Source: [Phialemoniopsis] sp. UDSM-2020 | Lineage: Eukaryota > Ascomycota > Sordariomycetes > Thyridiales > Thyridiaceae | Direction: 5' to 3' | DNA: 64,000 bases | Assembly: GCA_018873225.1 (NCBI GenBank) | Contig: JAEILZ010000001.1 | Span: 6,696,001-6,760,000 of the forward strand | Shown: positions 28,443 to 64,000 of the stretch, piece by piece | Layout: every line of letters begins with the position of its first letter | How positions within the stretch are numbered: position 1 is the first letter of the stretch | Made by a program: the position numbers and the translations under genes | The notes under the pieces: model-generated | What the model was told of the DNA's origin: nothing | Database searches by the model: none | The model's input: the letters and a program-made list of their open reading frames with translations, nothing else

Positions 28443-30468
28443 TCACTCGACCACCTTGGACGCGGGCGCATTTTCATACTTGTGCACCTCGTTCTTCATG
28501 ATCACGGCCCGCGCATTGTTCTTCTTTGCCCGGTCCGTGCTCACAGTGCACGCCGCCGCGATAGTCGCCAGCACTCCAAAGGCGATGGCGACCAGGTACA
28601 CCATGCTGAAGCCCTTCACGTACGACTCCTTGGCCGCCTCGATCGCCAGCTGGACGAGTCGCGGCGTGACGCCGGCCACCTTGCCGTACGCGGCCGCCGT
28701 GTTGACTTGCCCTGCCGACACGAGGCCAGCCAGAAGGCCATCCGAGTACGGCACGCCGGCCGCTTCGATAGCGCCTCGCATCTCGCCCGGCAGGACCTGA
28801 GCGAAGCGATTGGAATAAATGGCCGTGTAGATCGCCGTCGCGACCGCGCCGCCAAACAGGCGGAACGTGCCCGCCAGGCCCACCGCAACACCGCTAATCA
28901 AACCCATCTTGTCAGCACCCTGGATCCATCAAAATTATGCTTAAAATGATCCGCGGTGGGGATACCCACGGAAATAAAAAACTTACACATCTTGCTGATC
29001 CTCGAGACCAAATGACAACATGGTGAACGACAGCAGCTGCGGCGGCGTGATCATAGCCGCCGCGAGCACGACGGTGACGATGGCCTGCGCCTTGTCCGAC
29101 GAGCCCACCGACGCCATGGACGCGATGAGCGCCGTCTGCGCGACCATGAAGGCGATGAGCTGCCACTTCTCGTGGTGCAGGCGGTGGCACACAAAGATGG
29201 TGATGAGCGCCGCGAGCCAGGTGCCGCACGAGAAGATGAGGGCGTAGACGCCCTTCATGATGGTGTCCTCGGGCTTGACGAAGAAGGCCTGCGACTGCTT
29301 GGGCCACAGCACGTTCATGCTGTAGTAGAGCATGCCGCCGACGAAGCAGACGACGATGACCATGTCGAACCTGTTCAGTACCTAGTCAGCAACGCCGTTC
29401 ATCTCACTGCTGGAGTGCAAATAGACTTACTCTCGAACGCGCTTGAATAGCTTCGGCGGGAACAATGGGTATTTGAGGTCTGCATACGCACACCAAAAGC
29501 CGACCGCGATGAAGCAGCAGCCTCCTACGACAATGGGAGCGATGGTTCCGGGGTGACTCCACGGGTACGTACGTCCGCCAAAATTCACTCCGAGCAGGAA
29601 CAGGACACCGCCTGTCAAGAAGAGAAAGACACCGACATAGTCAAGCTCTGCAAGCAGTTGCAGCTTGGTCTTACCATCCTCACGGTGCTTCATCTCAAAG
29701 TCTGGGGGTTTGTAGAAGAGGAAGAGCAGGATGAAAGCGAAGCAGTGGTAGGCAAAGAGATACCAGTAACAGCCGCGCCATCCGATAGGCTGGTAGGCAA
29801 TGAAGGCGTAGGCCACGACTGGCGAGCTGAATGCGAGGGCTAGCGAGAAGTCGAGGCCCCCGACGGCGATGATCCGGTAGCGGTTGGGGACAATCTCTTG
29901 GACACAGCCGTAGCAAAGTTCTTGGAACCCGCTTCCGATACCGAACAGTGCACCAGAGACGATCATCATGTTAATGCTCGTCCCGTTGGCGCCAACCAGT
30001 GTGCCGCAGATGGAGATGAGGGCGCCGGTTATCATAAAGTATCGACGGCCGAAGATGTCGGATAGACGGCCCCCGATGGAGATGAGGATGGAGGCACCCA
30101 GTGTCCAGGTCAGCGTGATCCATGTCGAGTTAGGGTCAGGCCCGAGTTCTGCGTTGATGAAAGGCAGGGTCGTTGCGGGGATCAGCATGGTCATCATGTA
30201 GGCGTTGAGCTGACCGCACATGGCCTGTCAAAGAAACGATTGGGTGAGTTTTCAATGGCACCTCGCGATCGCAAGCTGGAGACTGGAGACTTACAAGGAA
30301 AGCAAGTATCACTTCCTTGGTCAGCTTGCCTTCTCCGTGATCCTCAGCCAACGCCATGATGGGAGGTTCTGTAGTGTTCTCAACATGAGCGTGCATCTCC
30401 AAGTCAGACTTCCCATGGTGAGTTGTGATGACCTCGTCCGAGGCCGATGGCGCGGGAGAGATTGCCAT
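28443..30468 (-). CDS. MFS transporter, TRI12-like (14-TM efflux type)
   Basis: Exons 30295-30468, 29431-30224, 28987-29370 and 28443-28893 give 600 aa. It has a short acidic/His N-terminus, then the TRI12-type start AMCGQLNAYMMTMLIPATTL, GGRLSDIFGRRYF, GFQELCYGCVQEIVPNRYR, and near the end EDQQDVGVAVGLAGTFR. That last junction shows the acceptor is 28894 and not the more distal AG. The family named after the trichothecene efflux pump exports fungal metabolites and siderophores; the substrate here is unknown. It opens the oxidative gene block on its left side. Confidence 0.9.
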
Positions 30469-31027
30469 CCTTCTATTGCGGTGTAAACCAACCTGCAGAC
30501 AGACTTGACACTACGAAGAATTCGAAAGTATCAATGACACTGCATGGTATGATTTCTGCAAGGGACGAAACTGAGCAAGATCAGAAGTGCAGAAGAGTGT
30601 GTGTTTCTGGGGTCCATGTTGTCCTCCTTTAAGACAGGATCTGCAATTGAGAGGTCGACTTGAACTTCTTGACGGGATTGTTTATCCATCGCATGCATGG
30701 GGTTGTGGCCCGTTGGATTTTGCGTTTAACTTGTTTTGTCTGCAGATCATTCACTTTTCGCTTCCAACCCCGCAACAACCCCAGATTTCGGATCCGAGCG
30801 CGGAGAAAGGTAACCAGCGGCACGGGAAAGCCGCACAGACTGACATGTCAAGAAATGTAACAATCAGAATGAATTGTGGGTGGATTTAGGGGCGCGTATC
30901 ATCAAGGAGTCTCCTCCTACGTTGGTAAAGCAGCGATGGGGTGGAAAGTGGTCCGCCATCAGCTACATGAAGTCGCGAGGATTGCGAAGACAGTAAAGTC
31001 AATGTGATAGCTTACAGAGAACTTGAA
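30469..31027. other. Intergenic (559 bp)
   Basis: Promoter of the TRI12-like transporter and 3' side of the P450 gene. Nothing specific is seen. Confidence 0.5.
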
Positions 31028-32930
31028 TCAATCTGACCAGCTCTCTCCTTGACCAGCCACTTTCTCCTTCCACTCGCTCTCCAGCAAAGCCTCGATCTTG
31101 GCACTTCGAACCTTGAAATCCACATTGAAATGTCGACCTGGCATCATGAGAAGACCCGTCTTGGTACCCACATCGTCTACAGTAAACTGCACGACCTCTC
31201 CTGTTTCCGGGTGTCGGGGATGGTGAAACTCGAACGTGTGAAGCAATCTACAGGCGACGGTAAACACGCTTCGCTCCGCCAGATGAAGTCCAGGACAAAT
31301 CCTCTTTCCGGCCCCGTAGGCGAAGTGATCCCGCTCAGCTGGGTCCGCTAGATTGCATGCAGCGGCAGCAGAGAGCTGGTAGTCAATGAATCGTTCAGGA
31401 TCAAACTTGGCTGGGTCAGGATATCGAGTATCTTCCAGATGCATGTTCCTGTGTAGTGGCACAGTTTTGTCAACGCCGTTTCGTTCAAACTTGCTAATGC
31501 ATTGTAACTAGGGAGACATACCAGTGATTCACTCGAACAACGGAACCCTTTGGGATGCGATAGCCACGGTAGACATCTTCGGCGAGTGTGTAGTGCTCGA
31601 AGCCTGTTCGAGCACATTGACTTAGTTTCAGACGGAAATGACAACCTCGTAGTTGTACTTACTCAGCGGAGAGATGCCTCTCCACCTGTAATTCTCCTTG
31701 ATGATGGCTCTGATGTATGGCAGGTTAGGTTCATCTTCCCAGGTTGGATATCTGTCCTGGCCAATGACCCTATCAAGCTCCTCGTGGGCCCTTTGAACAA
31801 CTTCAGGGTGCGTCACTAAAGCGAGGACCATAAATTCCAAGGTTGCCCCTGTCGTCTCAGAGCCTGCACCAAGAATTTCCATGCATGTGGTGGCAGCCTG
31901 AAGCTCGTCGACCTCACCTTGCGTCAGCATTTCGTTCTTGATGTCTCGCGCAACGGATGGCCGGTTTGGATGTTTTTCAGCCTCTTGCAAGGCTTCTCGG
32001 TAACACGTCAACGAGAATTCTTCTTCGAGATCCCTGAATGACTCGAGCTCTCCTAGCCAGGGCTGCAACACTCGTGGTAGCCTGCGAAGGAAAGGTAGTG
32101 TCTCGAAAACATATTTACCCGGCTGCATTGCTGTGCTGAAGTTTTCCATAACCGTTCGCATATTGACGGCGAATTCGCTTTTACTCGACAGGACACGCTT
32201 ACTGAATGCAACCGTTCTGGCGACTGACACTGCATAGCGGAGGAGCTCGTGGGAGAAGTTCTCGGGTTGGTGTCTGATGGTGTGAATTGTGGACAGAGCC
32301 TCGCGCTCTTGATATTGCAGGTACCCATCGCACTTTTTGGCACTCAAGACGTTGGAAAATACTTTCCTAAAGGACTAAGAATGCACGTCAACTTCAACCG
32401 AACTCGTCCGGCACGTCTCAGAGGTACATACGCGCCAGTGTGCACCATAAGGCATCAGTACACCTCGCCTGCCCCCGCTAACAAGCAGTCCAACCTCAGA
32501 CGGTGGTCGGGAGGAGTAGATGTTTGCTCTAAAGAACCGTGTATTTTATGTCAGCCAAGAACGATAGAAACTCAGAAGGATAGAAAACGCACCTTTGGCT
32601 GATCAATTCACGGTACACCGTAGCGTCATTTATGATGATAACATGCTGCAATCCAGTCCGATAATATGTGATAGGACCGTACTCTCTGTCATGGCATCGT
32701 CAGTCTAAGCACTGAAGCCGCGATGTTACTGATGGGAGATCTCAAGCATACTTGGCCCATTCAGTAAAGCGCTCCCATGGCCTCTGCTTTGGCTCTTCAA
32801 ATGTCATCCCTAAGAAGGGATATTGGCCCCTGGGCCCTGGAGGAAGAGGTGGCCGTCGCCAGGCCTCAAGAGTCTTGATAAAGACGAGTGCCACCGTGGC
32901 ACATAGCAGAATGACGATATATTGATACAT
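31028..32930 (-). CDS. Cytochrome P450 (OrdA-like), paralogue A
   Basis: Exons 32752-32930, 32593-32685, 32432-32528, 31663-32374, 31522-31603 and 31028-31448 give 527 aa. It has an N-terminal membrane anchor then the proline hinge PPLPPGPRG, the C-helix HWR, I-helix GAGSETT, K-helix ExxR (ENYR), the PERF motif and the heme loop FAYGAGKRICPG. The general look (KK-C-D-Y, GYRIPKGS, PTWEDEPNLPYIRAIIKE) matches the OrdA-like fungal P450s that hydroxylate or oxidise aromatic and terpenoid intermediates. The internal exons of 93, 97 and 82 nt are exactly the same lengths as in the P450 at 49825-51850, so the two are duplicates. It is divergent from the DAL5-like permease. Confidence 0.92.
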
Positions 32931-33794: not shown

Positions 33795-35530
33795 ATGGCA
33801 TCCGAAGGGAAACCCAGCGAGGAGCACGTCGGCGTGACACGTTCCGTGACAGTCGCGGACAACCAGAGCCGCGATCTTGATTTGAAGCAGATCGACACAA
33901 AGCACAACGATGAAGCCCTAAAGGTTGTCGCCGGCTATGATGGCGACACAAGCTGGACACCCGAGGAAGAAAAGCGGCTCGTCAAGAAGATTGACAGGCG
34001 CCAGCTGGTCATCGTTGTCATCACGTTTGCTGTCCAGTACTACGACAAGTATCTATTTTCACATGCTGTACGTTCCCAGCAACTTGATGACTGCCTTTGT
34101 TTGTTTGTATCACAAGTCTGACCTGCGGTTTCAGGCTCTCTTCGGAATGAGACAGGACCTGAAACTGGCTGTCGGGAACCGCTATTCCATGGCCAGCTCC
34201 ATCTTCTATCTTGGATACATCGTCGGAGCATATCCTGCTACATTCATGGCGCAGAGATATCGCGTCAACCGCGTCATCTTTGCCCTTGTGTTGCTCTGGG
34301 GCATTGACGTGCTTGCGGGCGGCTTCTGCCAGACATTCGGACACCTTTACGTTCAGAGATTCTTCCTCGGTCTTTTAGAGTCCGGCATGTCTCCCGTGTG
34401 GATGTTGGTCATTGGAGGCTGGTACCTCAAGAAAGAGCAAACCTTGCGCAACGGGTGAGTCCCCCACTACTCGATCTTTGAAGACCATTGGGCCTCTTGA
34501 CTAACTCCTTTCAGTGTCTGGTTTGCTGCTGCCGCCATGACAACCATCCCTGCACCGCTGATCAACTTTGGCCTGGGACATATCCAAGGTGCACTCTCTC
34601 CCTGGAGATATATGTTCATCTTTGCGGGTAGCCTTACCATTGTCTGGTCCCTTGTCATTCTTCTCTGCATGGACTCCGACCCTGTCTCGGCTACGCATCT
34701 GAATGAACGTGAGAAGTTCATCGCCGTTTCCCGACTAAGGGAGAACAACTCTGGTGTCAGGAACACGCATTTCAAAAAGGAGCAACTGTTCGAAGTTCTG
34801 ATGAGTCTCAAATTTTGGCTTCTCTTCTTGATATCCGTCGGGATCAACACACTCACTGCGGCGTCTACCACCTTCGTGCCCCTTATCATCAACCTCGATC
34901 TCGGGTTTAGTGGCCTCAATTCTTTGCTTCTTACCATTCCCACTGGTGTCATGGGTCTTATCGTGACGGTTGGCCTTTCGTGGCTTGTGCAACGCTTCTC
35001 CCATTGGAATCTGCGTATTTGGTCGCTCTGCTTCAGCTTGGTCGTCTTGATGGTCATGTGCTTGCTGCTCTGGCAGGCACGCAGCATCCACCCTGGAGGA
35101 AAATTGGTCGTGATCTACCTTCTGGCCTTCCAGGCGGCCGCCTATGCTGTGCTCATGAGCGTCACAATTAGCAATTGTGCCGGCTACACCAAGCGGTCAG
35201 CCATGTCAGCAGGCCTGTTCGTCGGATACTGCATTGGTAAGTCCTGTCGGCCTATAGTCTTCTAATTGGAAGGTGATACTGACCACCTGAATAGGCAACT
35301 TTATTAGTCCTTTCACCTTTCTTGAGAAAGAGCTCCCTGTCTACAACACTGGTTGGGCCTTCATCATGGCCATGCAAGCCTTTTCGGCCGTGCTGTGCCT
35401 CGTATATAGGTACCTGTGTGTTCGTGATAACAAGAAGAAGGACGCAGCCGGTCACACCGAGTCTTTCGAGCACGCTTTCGAAGATGATCTGACGGATAAA
35501 ACGAATGTCAACTTCCGCTACGTCTATTAG
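33795..35530 (+). CDS. MFS permease, DAL5/allantoate-type (anion:cation symporter family)
   Basis: Exons 33795-34067, 34135-34454, 34515-35236 and 35295-35530 give 516 aa. A hydrophilic N-terminus with EEEKRLVKKIDRRQL precedes TM1 (...VQYYDKYLFSHA), then LAVGNRYSMASSIFYLGYI and FLGLLESGMSPVW, all typical of the ACS/DAL5 family; the Cys-Val-Arg C-terminus is short and acidic. Fungal members import allantoate, nicotinate, phthalate-like and other organic anions with protons. Uptake of an acidic substrate fits a catabolic reading of the cluster. Shared promoter with P450 A. Reading through the introns would give three false truncations. Confidence 0.92.
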
Positions 35531-35875: not shown

Positions 35876-36620
35876 TCAAAGTTCCTTGAAGGCAATGTGC
35901 ATCATTCCGACACCTGGTGGATAAGGCAGCATGAGATCCTTCACTGGGCCGATATATCTCGGGTGGAAATCTCCCTTCGCCCAGATGTCATAGTGCTGCT
36001 GTCTACTCTGCCAGCCTACCAGCACTACACTTAGCATGGTGCGACCCGAGGGGCTCTCGGCGTGGTCAACGACAGGCAAAGTATCCCAAGTGCTCTTGTT
36101 GTAGTAGGAAGGCGTCAGCTCTGGTGGTAGATGGTGCATGACACCGTCCTGCATGGCCTGTACAAAGCGCTTGATTGCCTCGAAGTCTTCGGCACTGCCA
36201 CTGGCATCAAAAGGCAGGGTGGTGATGTCAGTGATGGGAGTTGCAGCAATGCCACCCACGCTGGCCATCGTTGGGCTGACTTGTGTTCTCAGTTTGAGCG
36301 GCTCACTTCCAGGCGCCGCCAGCCGGCGGATCGTGTCTAGGGACGCCGTTGCATCCGGGTCCGACCAGCCTGGTTTCTATTATCAGCGGCGTCGGAAGGA
36401 AGATGTACGCATGCTGCAGATGGTAAGAGGTGAACGAACCAATGGCCCAGACCACAGAGTTCTCGTCCTCCTCTGTTCTTCCCCAAGCAGACCAGCTGTA
36501 CCCATTCACTTTCTTGCATTGTTTAAAATGATCCATCAACTGCCTCCCAGCGGCATTCCCGTTGTCCTCGGGTTTGACCTCGGGTACAACTTTGAAAAAT
36601 ACTAGTTCCGTGATTTCCAT
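35876..36620 (-). CDS. Unknown 224-aa protein, possibly alpha-beta-barrel-like
   Basis: Exons 36440-36620 and 35876-36369 join across a 70-bp intron, giving GWSDPDATASL at the border. The N-terminus (ITELVFFKVVPE...) and the VGWQS(R)QQHYDIW stretch resemble small fungal cluster proteins with a dimeric alpha-beta-barrel (ABM/EthD) shape, but I see no diagnostic motif. It has no signal peptide. It is divergent from an SDR over a 578-bp promoter, inside the oxidative block. Such proteins may act as monooxygenases, cyclases or ligand-binding helpers; the role is undetermined. Confidence 0.7.
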
Positions 36621-37198: not shown

Positions 37199-38166
37199 AT
37201 GGTGGACAAGACCGTGTGCGTACCCCTGAACCTGAATCCTGACTGGTTGATGCTGATGTCTGGGCAGAATCATCACTGGAGGAGGCAATGGTATTGGCCT
37301 GGCAACAGTGAAACAGCTCCTGAGCTCTGACAAAGTTTCCTGCGTTGTGGCGGTCGACCTCAATGTATCAAGTCTTGAGCCACTACATAAGGAGAATCCG
37401 CACAAACTGCACATCGTAGCGGGTGACGTCACGGACGAAGCAACGAATGCCAAAGCTCTCGCAACCGTTCTGGAGTATGGTGGCAAATTAACAGATTTGA
37501 TCCTCAACGCCGGGATCTTCAGGCCTGTCGGATCGCTCCCTGAAATTTCCATCGAGGCGTGGAGGAAGACATTTGACATCAACTTCTTTTCTATTGTTCA
37601 CATGGTATGTTGTAACGATACCACACCCGGGCCGATCTTGCCCAACAGTGTTTTTGTGTGACGGTCTATAAGTCACTATGGCGCTGACTAGTTCGTGGCA
37701 ATAGATTCGACTTGCTTGGCCAGAACTTCTGAAGACCAACGGCAGCATAATTGTCACCTCGAGCAGAGTGAGCCAACGGCCCGCCGAGTATTGGGCATGT
37801 TACGCGACTACCAAGAATGCACTCAACTATCTGATGTCGTGCATACCCTTGGAGACAAACCAGCTGCGTTGTGTAGCTATGACGCCTGGGGCGGTTGATA
37901 CAGATCTGATGCGGACGGCAATGAGTGGAGGTAAGCAGAGACGATACCTGGGGTTGGGAAGAGCACGCTGACATTGGATAACAGAGGATCTATCCCCCGA
38001 GATGATAAAGTTCATGAAGAACCTCAACGGCAGTGGCAACTTGTATAAGCCGGAGCAGCCAGCAAGTGGCTTCCTGAAGCTGGTGGAGTCTGGCATACCA
38101 GATTCCTTGAATGGTAAAACCGTTTTCTGGGAGGATGTCGTGAGCGACCAGGTTGCGGATCAGTAG
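37199..38166 (+). CDS. Short-chain dehydrogenase/reductase
   Basis: Exons 37199-37215, 37268-37604, 37705-37930 and 37985-38166 give 253 aa. The tiny 17-nt first exon (MVDKTV) is needed to complete the Rossmann start VIITGGGNGIG. Also present are DVTD, LNAG (variant of NNAG), Ser in VTSSR and the catalytic Tyr-x3-Lys YATTK. The C-terminus YKPEQPASGFLKLVE resembles NADP-dependent fungal SDRs of cluster type. It would interconvert an alcohol and a ketone. It lies between the 224-aa gene and the hydrolase gene, same strand as the latter. Confidence 0.9.
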
Positions 38167-38756
38167 CAAGATTTTGGGGTTTGGACTTTTAATGTCGACA
38201 CGGCTCAATACCCATTGCTTAGGGTTTTGGAATATCAAGTTTTATTATACAAGTTCGAGCTGTGAATGGTGATAGATGGGAGTGAAACAATGACATGCGT
38301 CCAGAGGATCTAACTCGTTAGAGCCACGAAATATGGCCTGCATGACCCACAGACGGACAGCAATGATGAAAAATACCCTCCTGTCTTCCTGCATGAGCGT
38401 TGTCTGCCATGCTTTCCAACTGTGGTGGGTCAGGGGTGGATGACGGCTGATCGGATGAATTTTAGGGGTCAGCCAAGCTACCACTATCCCTAAAAGCCAC
38501 TAAGAACCCGACAGTCTTTTCAAGCCCACTGGGCGGTATTACAACGCCAAGCACATCTTCGGAGTTCGGGTGGCCTGCAACTTGCGCTTCCTGCTTGCAT
38601 GACCAGTCCAGTGATGTTTATAGTCGACCAAAAAATCCCAGCATTATTGTATGTCTCAGTGAAGAGAAATCAAACGTTAATTCTGCCAACGCGATTTCGC
38701 ATAGAATAGAGAAATGGGTTCAAAGTCGCATTGCTGTGACATTGGTCATCCAGGCG
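38167..38756. other. Intergenic (590 bp)
   Basis: An open frame in phase with the hydrolase begins at 38595 and would add 54 residues without homology signal; I treat it as 5' UTR. No other gene is seen. Confidence 0.45.
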
Positions 38757-39695
38757 ATGGTGAGTCCACCCACCCATCCACTTCCCGAAAGATATTACGT
38801 TGACAGAACGTTCTCAGATCAATATCGTCCACGTGGCCGGACGAGAACCGTCGGCCAGATTCAGGTCTATGAGACCCGTCCAAACGACGGCAACTCGAAG
38901 GGCACTCTCTTCCTACTTCCAGATGGATTTGGCCTGGCGCAACACAATCTCATCCTCGCCGACATGTTTGCCGAGCGCGGCTGGATTACAATGATTCCGG
39001 ATTACTTTGAAGGTATGTCCGAAATAAGCAATTCTTTCAGTAACAGCAGAGCTGACTTGAGCCCACTTTGGGTGACTGTAGGTGATCCGCTACCTGTTGC
39101 GATTCTGAACCGAGACAAGAGCAAACCGCTTGAGTCGATCATCGACATGAAGACATGGTTTGAAAAGCACTCGCCCGAGGTTATTCAGCGGCATCTCAAG
39201 TCTTGCTACGACGACTGGGTGGCTTCGGCATCTCCCGGCGCAGAATCGGAGCGCAGTCTTCGTGCAGTGGGTTACTGCTTCGGAGGGAAATATGCATTGC
39301 GAATGTCGTCGTGGGACCGCATGGCAACGGTCGCGGCCTTCCATCCAGTGAGTGCTATTGACGAGTTGTTGTCTCGTCATTAAGGTGTCGGGAGAAGGTG
39401 CATTGTGACTAACTGCTATGCGCAGAGTCTAGTAGAAGAAAGGGATTTGACTGGATCCAACGGTACCTTTTGCCCTACATATGTAGGACTTGCGGGAGAC
39501 GATAATATGGTGCCCAGCACCCTTGGTAGTGACTTGAGCCGATGGGCGAAGGGGCAGTCCCGCACCATTGAGCAGAGGGTGTTCCCTGGGATGGCACATG
39601 GGTTCGCAGCGCGTCCCAATACAAAGGACGACTCGGTGCTGGAACAATTTAAGGCAGCTTTCGAGTACACATGTCTAGCTCTAGATACAAATTAG
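38757..39695 (+). CDS. Dienelactone-hydrolase-like alpha/beta hydrolase
   Basis: Exons 38757-39012, 39082-39347 and 39426-39695 give 263 aa, normal for the DLH family. The nucleophile elbow GYCFGGKY carries Cys instead of the usual Ser, as in true dienelactone hydrolases; the Asp is in GLAGDDN and the His in GMAHGFAAR. TLFLLPDGFGLAQHN near residue 50 is the oxyanion-side loop. The family opens enol-lactones, for instance in aromatic ring degradation. In this cluster it could open a lactone made by the Baeyer-Villiger-type enzyme at 59-61 kb (inference). It starts at the first Met after an AT-rich leader. Confidence 0.88.
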
Positions 39696-39968: not shown

Positions 39969-41509
39969 CTACATGGCGAACTTTCCCGCGCCTTTGCAAA
40001 ATACGTTCTGCGGGTCATACTGCTTCTTGAGAGCTAGGAGACGGTCGTAATTGACACCGAATATTTCTTGTGCCGATGAGGTTGCGATGCCTGGCCCATT
40101 TAGTCAGCATGATAAGTCCGGAACACCGCCCGATGCAGTGGCATCGATGCCTGGGAAGATACTGACCGTCATAATTGCCATACTCTCCCACGCCGTCATC
40201 CGATTTGGGCATGCTCTCCTGGAGTGCCCGGTTTACCTTTTGTCCCATCTCTCTTGTCCAGTCTCTGCACCTTTTATCATTCTGCGCACCGACCCAGCGA
40301 GTGCTGAACAGGATGTTGTAATGCTCGCCCCGGTTGGCAAAGGACATGGCAGACTGCGAAACTTGATTGACCATCTTTTGGGAAAAGAACTCCAGAAGAA
40401 TGATGGACTTGATGGCATCCGGAACCTCAGTAATAAATTGACTGTAATTATCCAGCAGGGATGTCACCAGACTTGTCGATAATGGAACTGAGAATGCGGA
40501 CCCTTTCTGTGTCTTGCGGTCGCCGTGGGTCGAGACGGTGTTCAGCATGGCGTTGACATCGCGGTAGGGCATCTCCCGCGTCAGATCAACGATGGGGCCA
40601 AGCGCAAACAAATCTGCATAGTGGTCTTTCGCTTCGGCGGACTTTCCGTTGTAAAAGATGACAGCGAGCACGCTCACCTTGCGCGCCGGCGCCGGGGCAC
40701 CTATGCCCACAACCATGCCACTTCGTCCGTCGGTCGAGACCACGAGCTTGTTTGCAAAGTCGACAACTTTGGCTAGGGAACCCGGCGCAAAGACAAGGAG
40801 TCCACCGTAGACATCATTGACTTGTTCATATCCACGGAAGGTGAAGCTCGTGGCGACGCCAAAACTCTGCCCGGCTCCACGCGCAGCCCAAAAGAGATCC
40901 GGGTTGTCAGTCTCGGACGCGTGTACGATCCGGCCATCCGCAAGTACAAGTTCGACACCCATAAGATTGTCGATCGTCAAACCGTACTTTCCAGTTAGCC
41001 AACCATATCCGCCGCCCAAGGTCAGTCCACCAACGCCGGTGTGGTTGACGGTGCCGCCGACGGTGGCAAGCCCGTACTTCGCAGCGGCGTAGTCGACGTC
41101 TTCCCAGATGGCACCTCCTTCTACTTGTATAGTCTTGTTGGCATAATCGACTGTGACATTGCGCATCTTGGTCAGGTCAACTACTAGGCCCCCCTCGGTC
41201 GAGGACGACCCAGAAGTGGAGTGACCGCCACCGACGACGGCGATCTCGAGCTTGTGCTTCCGCGCGAAAACAATAGCCTTAGACACGTCCGTGGGATTTG
41301 TTGCTTGCACAACGACTGCCTACGACGTCCCAGTGGTCAGGTTTGCAAGCAACGCGGGGTCCAGCGCTCATGATACTTACAGCTCGCTTTTCGGCAGCTT
41401 CTGACCATCTCTTGAGGCTCTTCTCATACCCATTGTCCCCTGGGACAAGGACATCTGAGCCTACTAGTGATTTCCGGAGCTCGTCAATGGGTAGAGAATC
41501 TGCCGTCAT
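39969..41509 (-). CDS. BBE-type FAD-linked oxidase
   Basis: Exons 41381-41509, 40167-41319 and 39969-40090 give 467 aa. It has an FAD-binding PCMH-type domain with VVGGGHSTSG (the His that binds FAD covalently), VNHTGVGGLTLGGGYGW, and the C-terminal berberine-bridge part NYDRLLALKKQYDPQNVF supplied by the last exon. At the place where bicovalent members carry a Cys near GVGGL, this protein has none, so single His-linked FAD is expected. It has no signal peptide, so it acts inside the cell. The family oxidises alcohols, amines or sugars, or closes rings, with O2. An in-frame non-ATG codon further upstream is not used. Confidence 0.92.
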
Positions 41510-49628: not shown

Positions 49629-49824
49629 AGACTTACTCTCTTGTTGAATCAATTTGATACAGTTGTTATTCAGGAGCCACTACTCTGGGTAGTATACCAT
49701 GTAACCCATGTGCCAACAACTGAGTCATCATAGATAGCCCCGGTTCACCCCTTCTTTTCCTATAAACATGTCCTGCAACTTCTGATCCGACTGATTCTTA
49801 TCGTGACGACCAGTATATCCCAAT

Positions 49825-52602: not shown

Positions 52603-54648
52603 TTATAAAATTGTACATACAGTATCTATTCCTAAACGTTCCCAATTCTTGCTATCTAGAACCTTGTTCAGATTAGTAGTAAATAGGCCGACTCGGACAT
52701 ATGTGTCCCGAGCTTTCGATACAGACTTTAGAATCAAGAAGTGTCTCACTTTCTTCTTTGCTGATCGTGCGTTTCTTCCAATCTCGAGAAGGTGAAAGTG
52801 CGACAAAAGAAACCACTTATGCTCATGTCTCTTGCTGTCGATATTAAGAAAATACCGCTGGCGATTTGGGGCCCTTATCCTGAAGGCTGACCGTGAGCTG
52901 AAGAACCATGTTGAACCTTCCCACCTTTCTAGCGCAAACAAGAATGTCCATAAACGCCCCTGGAGGACTAAACGACTACTCGTAGGTATCCCATACGGGC
53001 TGTCGCTTGCATATTGACACTCGGCCTCTCGTACTAGGACAAGAGCCTCCACGTCTATGGAGGCGAGTTGCACAGTTCGAGCCTGCGATCCACTTGCCCA
53101 AGACCAGCTTGGGATATTTTTTGTCGTTCCCTTGGTTTCGGAATAAGGACCTTTGATTGGATGAACCACGTCCCAAGTTAAATCTGTGACCAAGGTGTCA
53201 GACCAGAGGCCGGCGAGATATCTATCGCCGGGTCTAAATTGATGAATGTACTCGGCAACTCCGGAAAGCGCTGGTAATCGATCACTTTGTACCGTGATAT
53301 TAAGATCACAGTAGGCACCAAGTATCAGTCCCCAAATCTGAGAACGATTCAAGTTCTTGTCGTTGCTGCCTCCTTCCAAACGAGGCAATGCGTGCTTGTG
53401 GCTGATATTTGTTGTGGCATCTTCCCGCGAAGCATCATCTCTCCCGCACTCGCAGGACACGCGGCCGAAACACTGAAAGGCAATCTCACCAGGCGCGAAG
53501 AGTAGTGTTCTCGGAGATATGACCCGCTCCTGATAGCACCATGCGCGCTGAAGTAGCGGAAGCGACCTCCGGAGCTCCTCATTGTCCCAGTAGTAATAGT
53601 TATCATGTGCCTTTCGCACATATAACGGCCACATTTTGTCCGAGCTCTCGTAGCGTAGGTTTGCAATGCGCATGGCAGGTGGGCGGCTGTGCTGAACAGA
53701 GTAGAGTCCTGCCGTCGGGTCTGCGCCAGAGGCGGCTACTAGAGTCACGTATGCGTTGCCGTAGACCCGGAACATGCGGCCGGACTCATGACGCCAGTCA
53801 TCCTCATCCCCTTGGATGATGCACACGCTGTCAATCCAGAGATAATCTATGCCCATTGACCGTGACCATTGAACCGCGTGCTGAAATGTCAGCGGCAAGC
53901 TTGACCATGGCATTACAGCTTGCCTGTGGGCCAGCGTAGTCTTGGTGGTAAGGCATGCATGCTTGACCTTGCCCCAACAATAGCTCAGTGCACAGTAACG
54001 AGACTCTTGAGGTACGGATGATCCGTCCCGGAGCACGACATCGCCATCTGCGTTCTGCGGTCGTACATCAATCAAACGCGTGGGAATGAACGGGCTTGAC
54101 ACAGGGCCGCAGTGAATGTGGTGTTGATGGCAGAGCTCAATCTCATTCTTTGCCCATTCCAGGGATCGGAATGACGAGGTATCATCCGGTGGTGTCGGCA
54201 CGCCCTTGGGTATCCACTTAGGCGTGCTCCCCTTGTTGTTGGCCGCAAAGATGTCCAAGTTCATTATATCTCCATATTCTGACGGTTGCTCAAACAAAAT
54301 GGTGCAGCCAGATTCATCGACCCAGATAGCGTCTCTCTTGCCTAGCTTCACGCCTACAGCTTCCAAGGCAAGCTGAAGGATTCGACACCTGATGCAGCTC
54401 TCCTGTGCTTGCCCAGTGCCGGAATGAGGGTGAAATGTAGTGTTATCTCCGCCTCGTGGAAAGAGTGTTGCTAGGTCTCGATTCCAAGAGCATCTCAGAC
54501 AGGGGCTCTCGCTGTGACCTTGAGATGGCAACGCATGCCCACCAGGCTCAGATGTAAATACCTGCTGCTGTGCGCTGACAAGGTCTGAACACCAGGCTCT
54601 CGGAAGGACAATATCCGGGGTCGTCATTATAATGATGGACGTGGTCAC
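52603..54648 (-). CDS. HET-domain protein (second)
   Basis: This is a single exon of up to 681 aa. An N-terminal part with two CxxC pairs (CLRC at 50-53, CIRC at 85-88) may bind a metal. The HET core spans about 219-310: ALSYCWG, LWIDSVCIIQGD and the RMFRVYGNAYVTLVAA block. It then follows the usual pattern (RAWCYQERVISPRTLLF). It belongs to a different branch from the HET protein at 14963-17170, which has LSYRWG. It interrupts the metabolic block, so it is either a passenger or a boundary marker. A second Met at 54627 could be the start. The gene is intact. Confidence 0.88.
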   Translation of the reverse strand: MTTSIIIMTTPDIVLPRAWCSDLVSAQQQVFTSEPGGHALPSQGHSESPCLRCSWNRDLATLFPRGGDNTTFHPHSGTGQAQESCIRCRILQLALEAVGVKLGKRDAIWVDESGCTILFEQPSEYGDIMNLDIFAANNKGSTPKWIPKGVPTPPDDTSSFRSLEWAKNEIELCHQHHIHCGPVSSPFIPTRLIDVRPQNADGDVVLRDGSSVPQESRYCALSYCWGKVKHACLTTKTTLAHRQAVMPWSSLPLTFQHAVQWSRSMGIDYLWIDSVCIIQGDEDDWRHESGRMFRVYGNAYVTLVAASGADPTAGLYSVQHSRPPAMRIANLRYESSDKMWPLYVRKAHDNYYYWDNEELRRSLPLLQRAWCYQERVISPRTLLFAPGEIAFQCFGRVSCECGRDDASREDATTNISHKHALPRLEGGSNDKNLNRSQIWGLILGAYCDLNITVQSDRLPALSGVAEYIHQFRPGDRYLAGLWSDTLVTDLTWDVVHPIKGPYSETKGTTKNIPSWSWASGSQARTVQLASIDVEALVLVREAECQYASDSPYGIPTSSRLVLQGRLWTFLFALERWEGSTWFFSSRSAFRIRAPNRQRYFLNIDSKRHEHKWFLLSHFHLLEIGRNARSAKKKVRHFLILKSVSKARDTYVRVGLFTTNLNKVLDSKNWERLGIDTVCTIL

Positions 54649-56000: not shown

Positions 56001-58006
56001 TCAAGAAGACGAAGTCTTGCCCTCATACGGCGCAATGCTCATGAAGTCTGGGTTCGGCTCTCCAGTCCAGCCTGGTAGGTGATAACCTGGAGGGAAAACG
56101 CCCACCGGGAAGTCTGTCCTCGTTTTCGACAGCTGAATAGGCAGACGAACTACATCCACGTCACGAAGACCCCACGCGGCTCCACTCACGGTCTGGTAAT
56201 ACTTCTTGGGCAGCGCAGACTCAAAGGGCCGATCGGCAATGAAACCTCTTACGCAGTGACGATTGCGTCCGTGGGAGACAATCTCGTCGTAGTGTCTCAT
56301 GTGACCAACGAGTTCGGGATTGCGCTTCTTCAGAGCCTCGAGTTGCTGCTCGTTGTATTGGCCGTACCGCTGCATATGCAGATCGGATACGACGAGCGAG
56401 CACTGGACGTTGTAGCAGCCTCCATTTTGACTGCGAAGAAGCAGTGCGTGGACGACACCAGCAGCGCCAGCATGTCCGGTTCTGAGTTTATGTCAGTCCA
56501 GTTCGGAGCTTAGCAAGTATTCAAAGATGACGCAACATGCAGTGGGCACTTACAGATAATCAGCATTTGGCCCGGGGAAGATGTGGGCTTCGTCAAAGCC
56601 ATTGAATCTTCCGATTGCTAGTCCGATCCCAGTAACCTTGACCTCTCTGTTAGTTATTGGGTGACTAGAGAACTAAGTATATAGTAGACATACCGTGTCC
56701 GATATCTGTGCCCAGCCGGGTCTGGTGATCCAAGGCCCCTTCCAGCCGTAGCAATTCTCCTGACAGTACACCAGACCCCGGTCCCGATTTGCAACCAAGC
56801 CAAAGACCGTGTCTCGCCCGAAGCCGAGATGCTCCAGGACAGCCGGTCGGTAGCCATCAATAAAGACGTCGACTTCTTTGATCAACTCCATGAGCTTCTT
56901 GCGTCCTTCAAAGGTCTTGAGGTTGATATCAATGCTGATCTTGCCCACGCAACCATCGAGAAGTGTGATAGGTAGCTCAGTATTGGTAGCGGAACTGACA
57001 CGAATCACAGTTGCCCCGAGCGCGGAACAGACTCTGCCAATGGTCGGGGCCGCAATAGCCCGGGCGAGCTCCAATACCTTAATGCCGGACAGTGGCCGTC
57101 GATCCGACGGATCTGAAGGTTCAGGCCACGAAGCCTTGGGCTGAGAAAAATAAGGTATCTTGTCAAGATTATACCATGGCTCATCCTTAACTGCAATGCC
57201 CTGAGTAGTTACGTGTTATCACAGAACAGAACATGACGTGGATGCCACAAAGAGAGCGCAACGAAAAAGCTGCATACCTGTGGAAGGGCTTCGAATTCTT
57301 CTTTCTCGTAGCAGATCGTCCCTGGGGTTCTATACACACTGTTGCTTTGCTCGTCGAGATCCTCAGAGTCCCACTGAGCCACGACTTCCTTGTACATATC
57401 GAGAATCTCACCCCATGATCGATTCTTTTCATTGTGCTGGGGGAGCCCGAGCATGGTGAGAAGTGGGGTTGGGTCCATGTTGCCGTGCAAGGAGTACCAA
57501 CGGCCGTCCCGAGTTTTGTAAATGTTGGTGCCGAGCTGGCGATACAATTCTCGAGTCTGGCCGTGATCCCACCTTTTCACGGCGGCCATCATCTTGTCCG
57601 AGGAGGTCAACCATTGGTCCTCGGATCGTTGGAAGAGAGCTCCAAGTCCGGCAAGCAGTGATTGCGCACTTTTCAAACACGACTGCGTGTCAACAATCAA
57701 GCAAGTCGGACATGAATGGCATCAAGGTCATACTCACACGTCAACCTCGACATCTTGTTCCAAGTCATAACGCTCCTTGGATATGGCAGCTGCAAGCGTC
57801 CCGATGTACCCGAGTAGTGCTGCTTGCGTCTCGGCACACTTGAAAGGCGTGGGGTAGAAGGGCTGTGTCTCTTCTCCGATGAATCTCACGTTGGGTACGA
57901 AATGCTGCGCTTCTTGCGGCAAGTGCAGTCGTGGATCTGAGACAATCGATTTAAAAATGCGATCAGCCTCCTGCTGGATGGAGTAGGTACTGTCTCGGTT
58001 TGTCAT
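56001..58006 (-). CDS. Class III CoA-transferase (CaiB/BaiF family)
   Basis: Exons 57740-58006, 57278-57682, 56694-57200, 56642 down to 56554, and 56001-56481 give 582 aa. It has the family's two-lobed layout: a degenerate N-terminal lobe, then GIKVLELARAIAAPTIGRVCSALGA (split here into pieces), ISIDINLKTFEGRKKLMELI, VDVFIDGYRPAVLEHLGFG and QENCYGWKGPW. The C-terminal lobe TGHAGAAGVVHALLLR appears only after splicing. Such enzymes move CoA from a donor thioester to a carboxylic acid. The first donor (GTGTGA at 57739) is the weakest site. In the cluster it could activate the acid left by ring opening for beta-oxidation (inference). Confidence 0.88.
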
Positions 58007-58375: not shown

Positions 58376-58849
58376 ATGTACCGCGGAAGCTGTCTATGTG
58401 GCGAGGTTGAGTTTCATGTCAATTCACCCGAGTCGCCCATCAAGGTATGGATGTCTGCCTTTTCTTTTAGGTGAATACCTACAAGTCACTAAGCGTGATT
58501 TCAGACATCTGTTTGCCATTGTTTGGAATGTCGCAAAATATCAGGCGGTGTTACCTCGCTGAACTGGACAGTCCCGTTTGACTCCGTGCAATTCGTCAAG
58601 GGAGTCCCAAGAAAATTCACGAAAAGACATGGCGAGAAGGGTTTCCTTTACATAGTCGCCTTCTGTCAAACGTGTGGTAGTCCACTATTTACCGCCCTGC
58701 CTTCCAATGACAAGATTCTCATCATCCAGGCAGGATGTCTGGATGACGCCCCCGTTTTGGCGACAACTCCATCACGAGAGCTGAATGTAGGCCATCGGGT
58801 ACCATGGAATGAGATCATTCGGGGGGCAGAGCAGAATGAAGCATATTGA
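58376..58849 (+). CDS. GFA/CENP-V-like zinc protein
   Basis: Exons 58376-58444 and 58505-58849 give 137 aa, the usual size of the family related to the glutathione-dependent formaldehyde-activating enzyme. The zinc ligands are visible: CLCG near residue 7, CHCLECRK right after the intron and FCQTCGS near residue 80. The fungal members' substrates are mostly unknown; removal of small aldehydes as S-hydroxymethyl-glutathione is the family idea. If a P450 in the block demethylates its substrate, formaldehyde would be released and this protein could handle it (inference). It is divergent from the CoA-transferase gene. Confidence 0.88.
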
Positions 58850-59089: not shown

Positions 59090-60997
59090 CTACGCCAACA
59101 ATGACTCCTGGATATGTGTATCTGAATTGCCAACCCTCCGTTCAACAACCCATTCGTTCCATCTGATCTTGCCAAGGAAACCCTTGAACTGAGAGTAAGT
59201 CCACGGCATAGTGTAGGTGATCCAGCCCGCATCGTTCTTGTAGTAACTGACGCATTCCGGCTTGGACCATACAAACCGATCTTGCTTGACTTGCACTTCG
59301 TCATTGTACGTCCTCTCCGCTTCAGCAGTCGGGTGCATGGCAATCTTCTCATTTCTCTTTGCACGCTTCACGATCTCCCTGACGGCTTTAGCTGCAAAGC
59401 GGGCCTGTAGCTCCCAGTTGTCCTGCTGCGAGTTCCAAAGCGACGCGGAGTTGGGACCGAAGCACATGAACATGTTGGGGAACTGGTTTGTGGCGACGCC
59501 ATAGAGGGCTTCGGGATGTTTGGCCCATTTGTGCTGCAGATCGAGGCCCCCGATGCCATGGACATCCATATGTTCGAGGTGCTGAGATGTGTTGAAGCCT
59601 GTTCCAAAGATGATGACGTCGAAGGGTCTCTCAGTCTCTTCGCGCGTCTTGCGCTCTGCAGACACAACCCCCCGTTCTGTGTATCGCACCAGGCTGTCGC
59701 GTAAAACCGTACAGTTTGATTTGGCCAGAGAGGTGTAGAAGTTGTCGAGTCGGAGTGGGCGCTTACAGTAGTCTATCAAATGGCCTGTTAGCTTGCCTGA
59801 AGGCGATGAGGTATGGGTTAGGGGTGTAGCTCACATTTAGAGTCGGGCCTCAACTTGGCACGTAGCTCTGGGTCCTGCACTTGCTTTTCCATGAATCTTA
59901 TTGCTTGGGCTGTCATGTCGTTGTTCTCAGGCGTATTGTCCGTGGCAGTCTTGAACGCTCCACCCATGCGAATGTTCATTCGGAAGCGGATGTAGTGGAT
60001 GAAACCCGGCACCCACTTTGCCGCCCAGCGGAACAACCTATCTTCATGTCAGCTATAAACGAGTCGTGCAGTGATAGTCATCCTACCAGCTATACTGAAA
60101 ATCATTTCGTGGAACGCAGACAGGCGGGGTCCTCATGTAGACGGTAAGGTGCTTGGTCTTGTCGATGATCTCGGGAATGATCTGAGCAGCACTAGGACCG
60201 CAACCGATCATAGCGACGTTCTTCCCAGTCAAGTCGTAGTCTTCCCTCCAATGCGCCGTGTGCCACGATATGCCCTTGTAGTTCTCACGGCCAGGTGTGT
60301 TGCCAAATTTCGGTGTATCGAGGCTTCCAACGCACTGGCAAAGCACGTCTGCTATCCAGTGAACAATCTGACCCGTACCCTTCCTTTCTACAAAGACGTG
60401 CCATGCCAGTTGCTTCTCATCCCATAGACAGGCGCGAACTAGAGTGTGAAACTGAGTGCATCGCGGCAGACCGTAGGCATAGGCAAATCGTGTGTAGTAG
60501 TCCTCGATCTGATCGCGTCTGGCGTAGAAATGGGTCCATACTGCGCCGGGAATCCGCGTCAGTGTTTGGAGATATGGCACGAGGCAAAGCTAGAGAGAGA
60601 CCGGCTTACATTTGTTGACCCAGAACGATGTTGTGTAGATGATAGCCGGTACATCGCACGCACAGCCGGGATACTTGTTCTTCGCCCAAACACCGCTGTA
60701 ACCGTCTTGGGCGTCCACGATCAATATGTCTCCGTGCTTCACAGAGCCATCGTCGAGCAAGACAGATGCTTGCTGAATACCCGTGATCCCAGCGCCAACA
60801 ATCAGGACGCGCTTCCGGTATTGGCTTGGTACCGTTGGTTCGTCCTGGACAAGCTTCTCGTAGTCGACGCCAGAGGCAGTAAACCCAGAGACGTCTCCAT
60901 ATCCGTCGCTATTGAGTGTCCCGGCATTGAAGGTCTCCACCGACTGTGGGTGACGCTCTGGTGCCTGATGCTTTTCGGGTGTTACTGGATTCGCCAT
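59090..60997 (-). CDS. Baeyer-Villiger-type flavin monooxygenase
   Basis: Exons 60610-60997, 60087-60540, 59835-60037 and 59090-59772 give 575 aa. FAD site VLIVGAGITG at 64-73; the BVMO fingerprint (F/Y)xGxxxHxxxW reads YKGISWHTAHW at 217-227; the NADPH site VAMIGCGPSAAQ follows; and the C-terminal block has FGTGFNTSQHL and MFMCFGPNSASLWNSQQDNWELQ. The long N-terminal extension (1-60) is common in fungal BVMOs. It inserts oxygen next to a ketone to give an ester or lactone with NADPH and O2. Tyr replaces the first Phe of the fingerprint. The first intron (60541-60609) leaves Leu130 at the border. Confidence 0.92.
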
Positions 60998-61599
60998 GCC
61001 TGTGTGTCGCTGGTGCCGTCTGAGATTGCATAATGATGCACTACAGACCGTCTCGCCGGCAGTTAGTGACTGCCCTACAGCACGAGATTTATACTATGGA
61101 GATCTGAACAGCTGATGGTACCTTTCAGTTTCTAAAGTCACCTCTGCCGTGTACACAGTTTCGGAGCTGGGAAGTGGTAGTGGGCGCTCCGAGTGGGTCA
61201 ACATTAATCGTACCACATGCTTAACATGAACTGACGCCCTGTCCATGCCTTCACCTAGAAATGGGCCACTAGTCGCCCTAAGCACCAGGTACCTCGGCTC
61301 CGTCATGATAGACTGAACAAACCATAGCTGCATCAGTCGAGCACTAGTCGGTCAGTCGAGGTTATCGAGAATGATGTCCAATAATTGGCGCTGAATACTT
61401 TGTATTAGAGTCAGAGCAGAAAGAGTGATGACCAGAGCTAGCTCAACATCATGTCCTTTTTTCTATATGAACTCTAGCTAGTTGTAGGTGCCAGAATAGA
61501 GGATATTCAGGCCTATCGCCCAGCGGCTGGCCGAGGCTGACCATGAGTTGCAGGTCTTGCCATGGACAAAACAAGGACAGGGCTAGAAGAACGGCTATC
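60998..61599. other. Intergenic (602 bp)
   Basis: BVMO promoter and 3' side of the last SDR. The open frame at 61094-61333 (-) has no support. No gene is seen. Confidence 0.5.
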
Positions 61600-62529
61600 C
61601 TATGTCATCAAGAAACCACCATTAACACTGAGACACACGCCGGTGATCCACTGCGACTTAGGCTCGCACAAGAACGCGATCGAATGTGCGATTTCCTCGG
61701 GCTCGGCCATCCTCGCTCCCATGGGTGTTGCATCAAGCATGGGCTGTATCTTCTTAAGAAACTCCTCTCCAGAATTCTTGAAACCGGATGTCTTGACTGG
61801 GCCGGGAGCAACTGCGTTAACAGTGGTTCCAAGCTTAGGTCCAAGCTCCCTAGTGCGAATGCGTTAGTTTGCGCGAAGCTTTGTAAAGATCTAGAATGGG
61901 ATCGGTCTCTTACAAGGCCCAGCACCGCGTGAAACTTTCGATCATCGACTTGGTGCCGTTGTATATCGTGGAGCCTACGTATCCCTGACGGGCTCCCACG
62001 CTGCTGATGCTGACGATGCGGCTGTTCCTTGTCAGGTACGGCAGCGCGGCCTGGGTTAATAGCATGGCGCCTCGAGCATTGAGGTTTACCTGCATGTCCC
62101 ATTGCTCAGGGGTCACCTCTTCCAGAGGCTTCATGATAGCAATACCAGCGTTGTTGATCAAAATGTCAATCTTGCCATATGTCTGTCGAACTGTCTCTTC
62201 TACTAGATGCTTTGGGCCCTCTTGTGTTGACAGGTCGGCCTCAACAGCAAAACATTCTGCAGCAGCGTAGCCGGGCCCTTTCTTAACAGCATCGAGTACA
62301 GCCTGGGCATCATGCCTTTGCGAATCCCAGGGGTAGTTGAGGATAACACGGGCTCCCCTTCGAGGATTAGCATCCTGGCTTCAAAGAACCGGGTCTGGCA
62401 CATTGGGAGGCAGTCTCAACCGTACCTGCTGGCGAGCTCGACGCATGTAGCCGCTCCGATGCCCCAGGCACTGCCGCTCACTAAAGCAACTTTTCCTCGC
62501 AAGGACTGCGATTCTTGATTGTTGTCCAT
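61600..62529 (-). CDS. Short-chain dehydrogenase/reductase
   Basis: Exons 62426-62529, 61914-62357 and 61600-61849 give 265 aa. The Rossmann loop is SGSAWGIG (variant of TGxxxGIG), with NNAG, the SISSVGARQG serine, catalytic Tyr-x3-Lys in YNGTK and a VAPGPV loop. The first intron uses the acceptor CGAAG at 62358, giving LASRGARVILNYP; the neighbouring AG would break the frame. The last exon supplies ITGVCLSVNGG, the standard SDR ending. It would oxidise a secondary alcohol to the ketone needed by the adjacent BVMO, or the reverse. It is divergent from the second hybrid regulator. Confidence 0.9.
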
Positions 62530-63328
62530 TGCAGCAGGGTGAAAAGGTTCAGCGGTGAAGACTGATAAAGAAGAGCAACCGGAAGGGTTCGTAAGGCTAA
62601 AAATGAGCGCGTGAATTTGAAAGTGACTCGCGTGTAAGTCTTCAGGGATCAGGTAGGCGACCCAATAGCACCCATGTTACGCGCTAGGACATGATGTACA
62701 TACAGGCTCATGTGCCAGAGGCTACTTGACTGGAACCCGCTTTCGGGGTTCGGATGTGGCATGTGGCCAGCCGAAACTCCGATATTAGTGTCTCCCTCGC
62801 GGCAAATTGACCACATGGACGGTCACAGGTGCAGCAGTGCCGTCGTGAACCGTCTCCCTCTGACCCTAATCCCCCAGTCAAACACATCAAGTAGAGACTG
62901 CAAGTCTTTAGCAAGGCGCCAGAGAGCTAAACAATTTGCTACATTTCTCTCCTGTTGGGGGAGAATTCTTCCTCCCAAACCTGTAACGAAAAGGACCCGA
63001 ACGCTTTACCAAGACTACTTTAGGCTACACTGGCCTGCTAGAGGAAAGAGCTCTAGTGCTGGCTGGAGACGCTATGGAGTCCCCGCTCCAACTAAATGGG
63101 GCCCCGCGACCCTCGTGTTGGTGGTGCGAGTGGAGGCTGAGGCTCTGGCTTTTGCTTTCCCCGCACGCTTTTCCTTGAGCGATGATCCCCTTCCTTCACT
63201 GACTTTTTTCCTTACATCCCGTGCCTTGGCTCCGTCCTATCCGTGCCATGGCATGTCTTGAGCCTGATTCCAAGTCGAATGTTTCCTTCCTTTAATCCAG
63301 CGGCTCGATATCTTTGAAGCAAGGCAGC
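62530..63328. other. Divergent promoter region (799 bp)
   Basis: Between the last SDR and the second regulator. The 62710-63261 frame (+) has no domain, and its end is a Phe/Leu/Ser run without codon bias. No gene is called. Confidence 0.45.
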
Positions 63329-64000
63329 ATGTCCTCCATTTCAGAGACGTACAGGTCTGGAAGGCAAGCTAGGTACAGCACCATCAAAGCTAAGGGGGGA
63401 CTCGCCGTTGATGTCCAAATTGGTCCGCTGACAACACGCTCTCCCTCGCAGATATCCGTGCTCTGTCTGCCCACGGTCTTTTGACCGCAGGTGCGTGTTC
63501 ATTATCAGCCATTGGCATTCATCTGAAGCCCTGTGTTGCACAAGCGACTGACCTCAACCCAAGGGATGTTCTGGCGCGACATCTGCGCATCCATGACAAG
63601 GGCCGAGCCAATCCAAGATCCAAAAGAAAGGCCTGCATTCCTTGTTCAAGGTAAGTTTCCTTACCTCTGGTGCGACGTTGCAAACCAGTCAACAACGTCT
63701 TCCGCAGTCATTCTGGCCGAGGTTCGGGCACTTTAAAACTGACCAAGGGCTGGCTCGGTAGATCCAAGATACGATGCCATGGCGAGCGTCCTTCTTGCTC
63801 TGCATGTGCGAAAAGATCATTAAGCTGCGAATATGCGTCGGCGCAGTCGACAGTTGATCGCACAAGATCTGAATCATCGCCATCATCTCCGACATCACCA
63901 AGCCTTAACAACAACTCGTCACCCTCGACCAGCGCATTGAACCCCTATACCACGCCCACGACGGCGACGCACACATCTGTAGCACCATCGCATAGTCCGA
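63329..64000 (+). CDS. Second hybrid C2H2 + Zn2Cys6 transcription factor, 5' part
   Basis: Exons 63329-63354, 63452-63490, 63564-63650 and 63762 to beyond the window edge encode at least 136 residues. A C2H2 finger lies at 12-32 (C12, C15, H28, H32) and a Zn2Cys6 cluster at 46-73 (Cys 46, 49, 56, 63, 66, 73), then a Ser/Thr/Pro-rich linker. Two introns cut the finger at Arg22 and the Zn cluster at Arg51, phase 2, exactly matching the regulator at 42440-45203. No single long frame exists, so it is easy to miss; minus-strand frames here are shadows. The 3' end is outside the window. Confidence 0.85.

Follow-up and report, generated by a model that had tools for sequence, protein, structure and literature searches.

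A candidate catabolic gene cluster for ring opening in the fungus [Phialemoniopsis] sp. UDSM-2020

What might a dense block of oxidative genes do when no core biosynthetic gene is seen beside it? The question is raised by positions 28,443 to 64,000 of a 64,000-nucleotide stretch of [Phialemoniopsis] sp. UDSM-2020, here called the window, which covers positions 6,696,001-6,760,000 of contig C1 (JAEILZ010000001.1, assembly GCA_018873225.1). C1 measures 8.58 Mb of a 44.2-Mb genome in 11 contigs, and its nearer end is ~1.8 Mb from the window. Catabolic clusters without a core gene escape tools keyed to polyketide synthase (PKS) or nonribosomal peptide synthetase (NRPS) genes. We estimate a probability of roughly 0.6 that this block is a pathway-specific catabolic cluster acting on a ring substrate, as judged from sequence. 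Its core would be formed by a Baeyer-Villiger monooxygenase (BVMO), a class III CoA-transferase, a dienelactone hydrolase (DLH)-family enzyme, a cytochrome P450, and a regulator, while a berberine bridge enzyme (BBE)-type oxidase, an enoyl reductase, an NTF2-type flavin monooxygenase (NTF2-FMO), a GFA-family protein, and transporters are probable accessories.

Linkage of the core genes across fungi

Gene models were obtained with a purpose-written spliced-gene finder followed by Pfam profile scans, and four of them (the DLH, the enoyl reductase, P450 (a), and regulator 1) were refined by hand. The models and scans back each enzyme of the oxidative set named in the initial annotation. Five genes are treated as the core. 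The BVMO (575 amino acids; 59090-60997, minus strand) is assigned from its model, Pfam, structure matches, and a paralogue on contig C6, and the CoA-transferase (576 amino acids, permuted domain order; 56001-58006, minus strand) from its model, Pfam, and relatives. The DLH (258 amino acids; 38714-39695, plus strand) has a model end derived by hand from its exons and a Pfam match, and P450 (b) (526 amino acids; 49825-51850, minus strand; PF00067) is included on the basis of synteny. Regulator 1 (796 amino acids; 42455-45203, plus strand) combines C2H2, Zn2Cys6, and Fungal_trans regions and likewise has a C6 paralogue.

Homologues of the BVMO, the CoA-transferase, and the P450 share an equally long contig in 15 of the 19 assemblies that hold at least two of them, and in 10 of these 15 they are 1 to 8 locus tags apart. 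Among the determinable comparisons, the CoA-transferase is linked with the BVMO in 6 of 10 (6/8 assemblies) and with the P450 in 6 of 9 (6/7 assemblies), and the BVMO with the P450 in 5 of 8 (5/7 assemblies). As a control, P450s of less than 40% identity in such assemblies were linked in none of 14 cases (0/7 plus 0/7; eight distinct P450s). The count leaves out unnamed metagenome matches, BVMOs below 42%, CoA-transferases below 60%, and P450s of species without a partner match; Exophiala bonariae, whose sole partner was a 34% P450, was excluded to give the denominator of 19, and the 4,339-base contigs common to one P450 match (P0217) and one CoA-transferase match (P0027) were not counted. For these three genes, contig sizes and locus tags bear out the synteny in relatives on which the catabolic proposal had been made to depend, and by this measure their linkage is non-random and conserved across species, distantly related fungi included.

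The best named relative of the CoA-transferase is from Fusarium poae (80%) and that of the BVMO from Ilyonectria destructans (77%), both nectriaceous fungi. A conserved set of BVMO, class III CoA-transferase, DLH, and P450 would thereby extend to Fusarium, Plenodomus, and the black yeasts, among which is a toluene degrader that has been studied. In Fonsecaea, a single gene model fuses a CoA-transferase of the same family to a DLH that is 42% identical over 243 amino acids to that of the window.

Core enzymes and their second copy

The nearest solved structures to the window BVMO are themselves BVMOs. They take the first 16 of 49 matches (157.4 to 139.3 bits), comprising one putative monooxygenase and otherwise cyclohexanone or phenylacetone monooxygenases, in comparison with 44.7 bits for the best ancestral FMO. 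By its closest solved relatives the enzyme is a type I BVMO, for which conversion of a ketone to an ester or lactone is predicted.

The CoA-transferase departs from the usual linear domain order. Residues 44-173 in its N-terminal half match profile positions 149-267 (E = 1.5e-4; 21.5 bits, below the cut-off of 23.3), while the C-terminal half matches profile positions 1-207. The permuted arrangement is aligned along its length by 20 fungal and metagenomic relatives, and in all 20 the residue Asp415 of the C-terminal half, in the context NADYLTGHAG, is invariant. With Asp415 taken as the catalytic aspartate by motif and Pfam alignment, fold and aspartate place the protein in the class III family as a permuted relative. 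A full-text search with six locus tags of these CoA-transferases returned no mention in the literature. The DLH (Pfam E = 2.5e-20) keeps a Cys-Asp-His triad, and its GYCFGG, GDDNM, and GMAHGF segments align to 7jiz in a weak match (E = 1.9e-4).

A second copy of much of this core is found on contig C6, where paralogues of the regulator, BVMO, DLH, and CoA-transferase stand within 14 kb at 4.09-4.117 Mb (80 kb examined), the CoA-transferase match ~4 kb from the BVMO. Identity to the block, given by aligned stretch, is 41-65% for the BVMO, 51-64% for the CoA-transferase, and 35-55% for the DLH. The C6 regulator, with C2H2 and Zn2Cys6 fingers recognized by eye, is 27-31% identical by stretch to regulator 1 and 20-35% to regulator 2. 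Interspersed with these genes are one of the Dabb family and fragments of another regulator. In the same 80 kb we found no close paralogues of the P450s, NTF2-FMO, BBE-type oxidase, or transporters and no GFA match; weak matches comprise a 26% P450 fragment 39 kb away, family-level enoyl reductase matches, and a 34% transporter fragment.

The ~13 kb upstream of the C6 regulator contain genes for an acyl-CoA synthetase (AMP-binding), an enoyl-CoA hydratase (ECH_1), a 2-oxoadipate dioxygenase/decarboxylase (HGLS), and an intradiol dioxygenase, as well as fragments of further regulators and a quinone-oxidoreductase-like gene. The intradiol dioxygenase matches best to 8r2v (252 bits; labeled just "intradiol"), then to named hydroxyquinol enzymes (219 and 163 bits), in comparison with at most 99 bits for chlorocatechol and 96 bits for catechol enzymes. 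On these family assignments the C6 surroundings are catabolic, and a joint unit with the C6 core is putative. As the second copy lies near catabolic genes, it favors a catabolic locus in the window as well.

A probable catabolic role and competing explanations

When the enzymes are placed in sequence, a route can be proposed. The P450s would hydroxylate the ring substrate and the short-chain dehydrogenases (SDRs) oxidize it to a ketone, into which the BVMO, possibly together with the NTF2-FMO, would insert oxygen to yield an ester or a lactone. Hydrolysis by the DLH-family enzyme could then open this product to an acid, and the class III CoA-transferase would move CoA from a donor, for example succinyl-CoA, onto the acid for β-oxidation. 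The C2H2-Zn2Cys6 regulators are likely candidates for control of the cluster. We infer the order of steps, the metabolic direction, the regulatory control, the CoA donor, and the substrate from the gene content.

Two regulator genes had been claimed and both are present, at 42455-45203 and from ~63.4 kb to 66267, the second mostly beyond the window. Regulator 2 begins with a 5' part at 63432-64000 (plus strand; start not fixed) and continues into the right flank as a Fungal_trans body (64015-66267); across 529 amino acids it shares 35% identity with regulator 1. C2H2 and Zn2Cys6 fingers were recognized by eye in both. For regulator 1, Pfam supports Zn_clus and Fungal_trans, with C2H2 scoring 24.4, just below the cut-off of 25.2; the scan of regulator 2 covered the Fungal_trans body.

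Several known systems resemble this arrangement. In the Pseudomonas putida camphor (cam) cluster, the order of P450, dehydrogenase, BVMO, lactone opening, and CoA activation is similar, and a further monooxygenase forms a second lactone; this bacterial system differs in that the first lactone opens spontaneously and in that a CoA synthase (ligase) is used in place of a class III CoA-transferase (PMC4097962). The camphor enzyme OTEMO is not the closest solved relative of the window BVMO (126.8 bits, where the best match scores 157.4). In SAR202 bacteria, BVMOs, short-chain dehydrogenases, P450, and Caib/Baif CoA-transferases are proposed to act jointly on alicyclic rings, although that scheme, itself a prediction, concerns expanded paralogue families of bacteria, with BVMOs of type II, and no single cluster (PMC5395668). 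The gene logic of the block matches camphor degradation and the SAR202 scheme, and we lean slightly toward an alicyclic or terpenoid substrate over an aryl ketone or alkylphenol for the core. Among fungi, CMQ_7007 and CMQ_6956 of Grosmannia clavigera are BVMOs tied to limonene breakdown; they were compared by description, not by sequence, and the available part of the review mentions no cluster with a class III CoA-transferase and DLH (PMC8120277). The same text describes fungal clusters for plant compounds in Fusarium, which detoxify benzoxazolinones and carry evidence of horizontal spread (PMC8120277). The window differs from these in its chemistry. The benzoxazolinone clusters use a lactamase and an N-acyltransferase, and we know of no BVMO or CoA-transferase in them.

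Several observations weigh against a conserved catabolic unit. The linkage count is a proxy from equal contig sizes and locus tags. The shared contigs of Xylogone (8.2 Mb) and Paraphoma (1.27 Mb) are large and carry no readable tags, so closeness of the genes is not shown there, and in Xylogone the P450s are on other contigs. For F. poae and F. piperis, linkage is seen between the CoA-transferase and the P450, but the matches listed include no BVMO; the BVMOs of Plenodomus lindquistii are on other contigs, and the core homologues of Fonsecaea nubica are unlinked. The pair linked in Cladophialophora immunda has the lower identities (60% and 48%), while the closer BVMO of this species (63%) lies on a different contig. 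At the level of motifs, the window BVMO departs by one residue from each of two strict fingerprints (Y for F; S for A/G), both of which the C6 paralogue fits, and the heme-loop pattern used matched neither P450, both of which have YGxGKRICxG with ExxR by eye. Finally, no shared promoter motif survives correction in 19 cluster and C6 promoters compared with 40 others (divergent promoters being taken twice): the best 7-mer, CTCCACC, has p = 6.0e-5 and misses the Bonferroni level of 1.0e-5, and a scan of CGG-type pairs and spacings gave 2 of 64 combinations at uncorrected p values of 0.019 and 0.033.

The explanation that survives best alongside a catabolic cluster is compatible with it, namely that only the small core (BVMO, CoA-transferase, DLH, P450, and regulator) is a unit and most other genes are unrelated. 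We give this somewhat less than an even chance. The C6 locus has clear paralogues of the regulator, BVMO, DLH, and CoA-transferase only, and a HET gene lies within the block; the presence of two related regulators, one inside the block and one at its right end, speaks instead for a larger unit. The initial proposal of a catabolic cluster is accordingly upheld for a conserved core that is more than a set of chance neighbors, while uptake of an acid, clearing of formaldehyde by the GFA-like protein, co-expression, the membership of all 35 kb, and a terpenoid or alicyclic substrate did not find the same support.

A different substrate class is suggested by the right flank. The block runs past 64 kb (50 kb examined), and the body of regulator 2 is followed by an aldehyde dehydrogenase (ALDH), an NmrA-like gene, an FAD_binding_3 monooxygenase, a vanillyl-alcohol/eugenol-oxidase-like flavoenzyme at 73376-75410 in window numbering (best structure match 8s7n, 392 bits; eugenol oxidase, 354 bits), and a Zn-alcohol dehydrogenase. 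It is conceivable that the locus reaches ~77 kb and serves breakdown of aryl ketones or alkylphenols, that is, lignin-type aromatics: the vanillyl-alcohol-oxidase-like enzyme would oxidize a phenol side chain, the BVMO would turn an aryl ketone into an ester, and hydrolysis would give a (hydroxy)quinol for ring cleavage elsewhere. In line with this, a hydroxyquinol-1,2-dioxygenase-like gene lies ~12 kb from the C6 BVMO, and an NTF2-FMO paralogue at C1:4.73 Mb is near a relative of the right-flank FAD monooxygenase. In C. immunda, the VAO/PCMH-like gene CLAIMM_11938 is reported to be up 18-fold on toluene (PMC5595782), and by tag number it would stand 27-29 tags from the linked CoA-transferase and BVMO. 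No ring-cleaving dioxygenase was seen among the gene models of window and flanks, many of them judged by eye, and we regard an aromatic substrate as the less likely reading.

It could also be speculated that the block serves detoxification and not nutrition, modifying an antimicrobial compound for export by the TRI12 pump, a role that can coexist with a catabolic one. A TRI12-type pump is present in the block, and a review names two Grosmannia BVMOs as fungal terpenoid-detoxifying enzymes (PMC8120277). The CoA-transferase and the β-oxidation-type genes near the C6 copy point instead to fuller breakdown, and detoxification in place of nutrition is considered unlikely.

The weakest alternative concerns secondary metabolism. 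The initial annotation saw no PKS, NRPS, cyclase, or prenyltransferase gene in the block and held that a core biosynthetic gene just past 64 kb would speak against its proposal; none was seen within 50 kb to the right or 30 kb to the left of the window, part of these flanks being judged by eye (the left-flank genes and the right-flank genes beyond 79 kb were assigned in this way, without Pfam). The nearest PKS ketosynthase is at C1:6991123, 231 kb away (50 matches genome-wide; 48/48 candidates scored), none of the eight terpene synthase matches in the genome is on C1, and the one DMAT match is on C10, with UbiA prenyltransferases outside the search. The lack of a nearby core gene thus holds for PKS, terpene synthase, and DMAT; for NRPS genes, 14 AMP-binding candidates out of 136 were scored, and all 14 lie away from the block. 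Tailoring genes of a pathway whose core enzyme lies elsewhere or is of an unrecognized class, as P450, BVMO, BBE, enoyl reductase, SDR, and MFS (major facilitator superfamily) genes commonly are and as the partial NRPS check would allow, are very unlikely given the distances above, a core that contains a CoA-transferase and DLH, and the catabolic genes near the C6 copy. The conserved core linkage and the 50 kb past 64 kb, where no core biosynthetic gene was seen, make a catabolic role likelier than a tailoring one.

Tentatively, the core may represent an undescribed, widely dispersed fungal ring-opening pathway that was transferred as a unit from one fungal class to another. BVMO and DLH would feed the permuted CoA-transferase, and the two copies in this genome would each serve a different ring substrate, controlled by paralogous C2H2-Zn2Cys6 regulators. 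Among the papers listed in the literature searches, no title or abstract start describes such a cluster, supplementary files being outside the search. A conserved set of BVMO, CoA-transferase, DLH, and P450 would offer a way, open to experimental test, in which fungi break plant- or pollutant-derived rings, and new ring-opening enzymes; the core is small enough for direct testing.

Remaining genes of the block and its flanks

The accessory flavoenzymes allow some further prediction. The NTF2/SnoaL-type class B flavin monooxygenase (47183-49692, plus strand; ten-exon model with an uncertain last exon, and Pfam) has putative membership and is closest in structure to 8ACS, which is JsFMO (229 bits). 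JsFMO carries a SnoaL-like N-terminal domain, and the title of its description calls this flavin monooxygenase a BVMO (PMC10028610); from this resemblance, a second oxygen insertion by the NTF2-FMO is possible. A paralogue at C1:4.73-4.74 Mb has a regulator-like gene ~1 kb away, and the monooxygenase near it is 27% identical over 340 amino acids to the right-flank FAD_binding_3 enzyme. At C8:432 kb, the 20 kb examined for another regulator-like gene contain part of an NTF2-FMO paralogue and no BVMO, CoA-transferase, or DLH match. The BBE-type oxidase (39969-41509, minus strand; model, Pfam, and structure matches; membership putative) has EncM and 6-hydroxy-D-nicotine oxidase as nearest solved relatives, which does not fix its reaction.

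P450 (a) (527 amino acids; 31028-32930, minus strand; PF00067) is 51% identical to P450 (b). SDR 1 (37199-38166, plus strand), with YxxxK and TGxxxGxG present, and SDR 2 (61583-62529, minus strand) were both modeled with Pfam support and keep the key SDR motifs. The MDR/enoyl-reductase-like oxidoreductase (351 amino acids; 45338-46679, minus strand; PF08240) has a hand-derived end and putative membership. The GFA-family gene (58376-58849, plus strand), apparently of two exons and with ends set by eye, is called from open frames and a PF04828 match (E = 1.2e-14 at 58499-58756); the family is large in this genome, with at least 28 exon matches.

Two transporters are putative members. The TRI12-type MFS efflux transporter (28443-30357, minus strand; TRI12 E = 1.3e-59) is peripheral. 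The gene at 33795-35530 (plus strand; MFS_1 E = 3.5e-31) had been called a DAL5-like organic-anion permease; Pfam (MFS_1, Sugar_tr) confirms an MFS transporter, and the DAL5 label could not be told from it.

Two modeled genes were absent from the earlier gene list. One encodes an orphan protein of 224 amino acids (35876-36620, minus strand) without a Pfam family, for which the genome yielded no further copy; its single-sequence structure prediction reached a pLDDT of 36 and was not used. The other, a HET-domain gene (52844-54264, minus strand; model and Pfam), is probably a bystander, and a relative 34.7% identical over 251 amino acids lies ~22-23 kb left of the window. Scans of the window for tRNA and Rfam families gave no matches.

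Beyond the right-flank Zn-alcohol dehydrogenase comes a 281-amino-acid protein with no match in Pfam, followed by apparent glycerol-metabolism and other genes recognized by eye. On the left side of the window, a long model at 11407-17170 joins HET-like and NTPase/repeat-like parts by eye and may be two merged genes. At 4352-7794, an ALDH-like gene is followed by a DapA-like aldolase gene, both recognized by eye, and these could form a small catabolic pair of their own.

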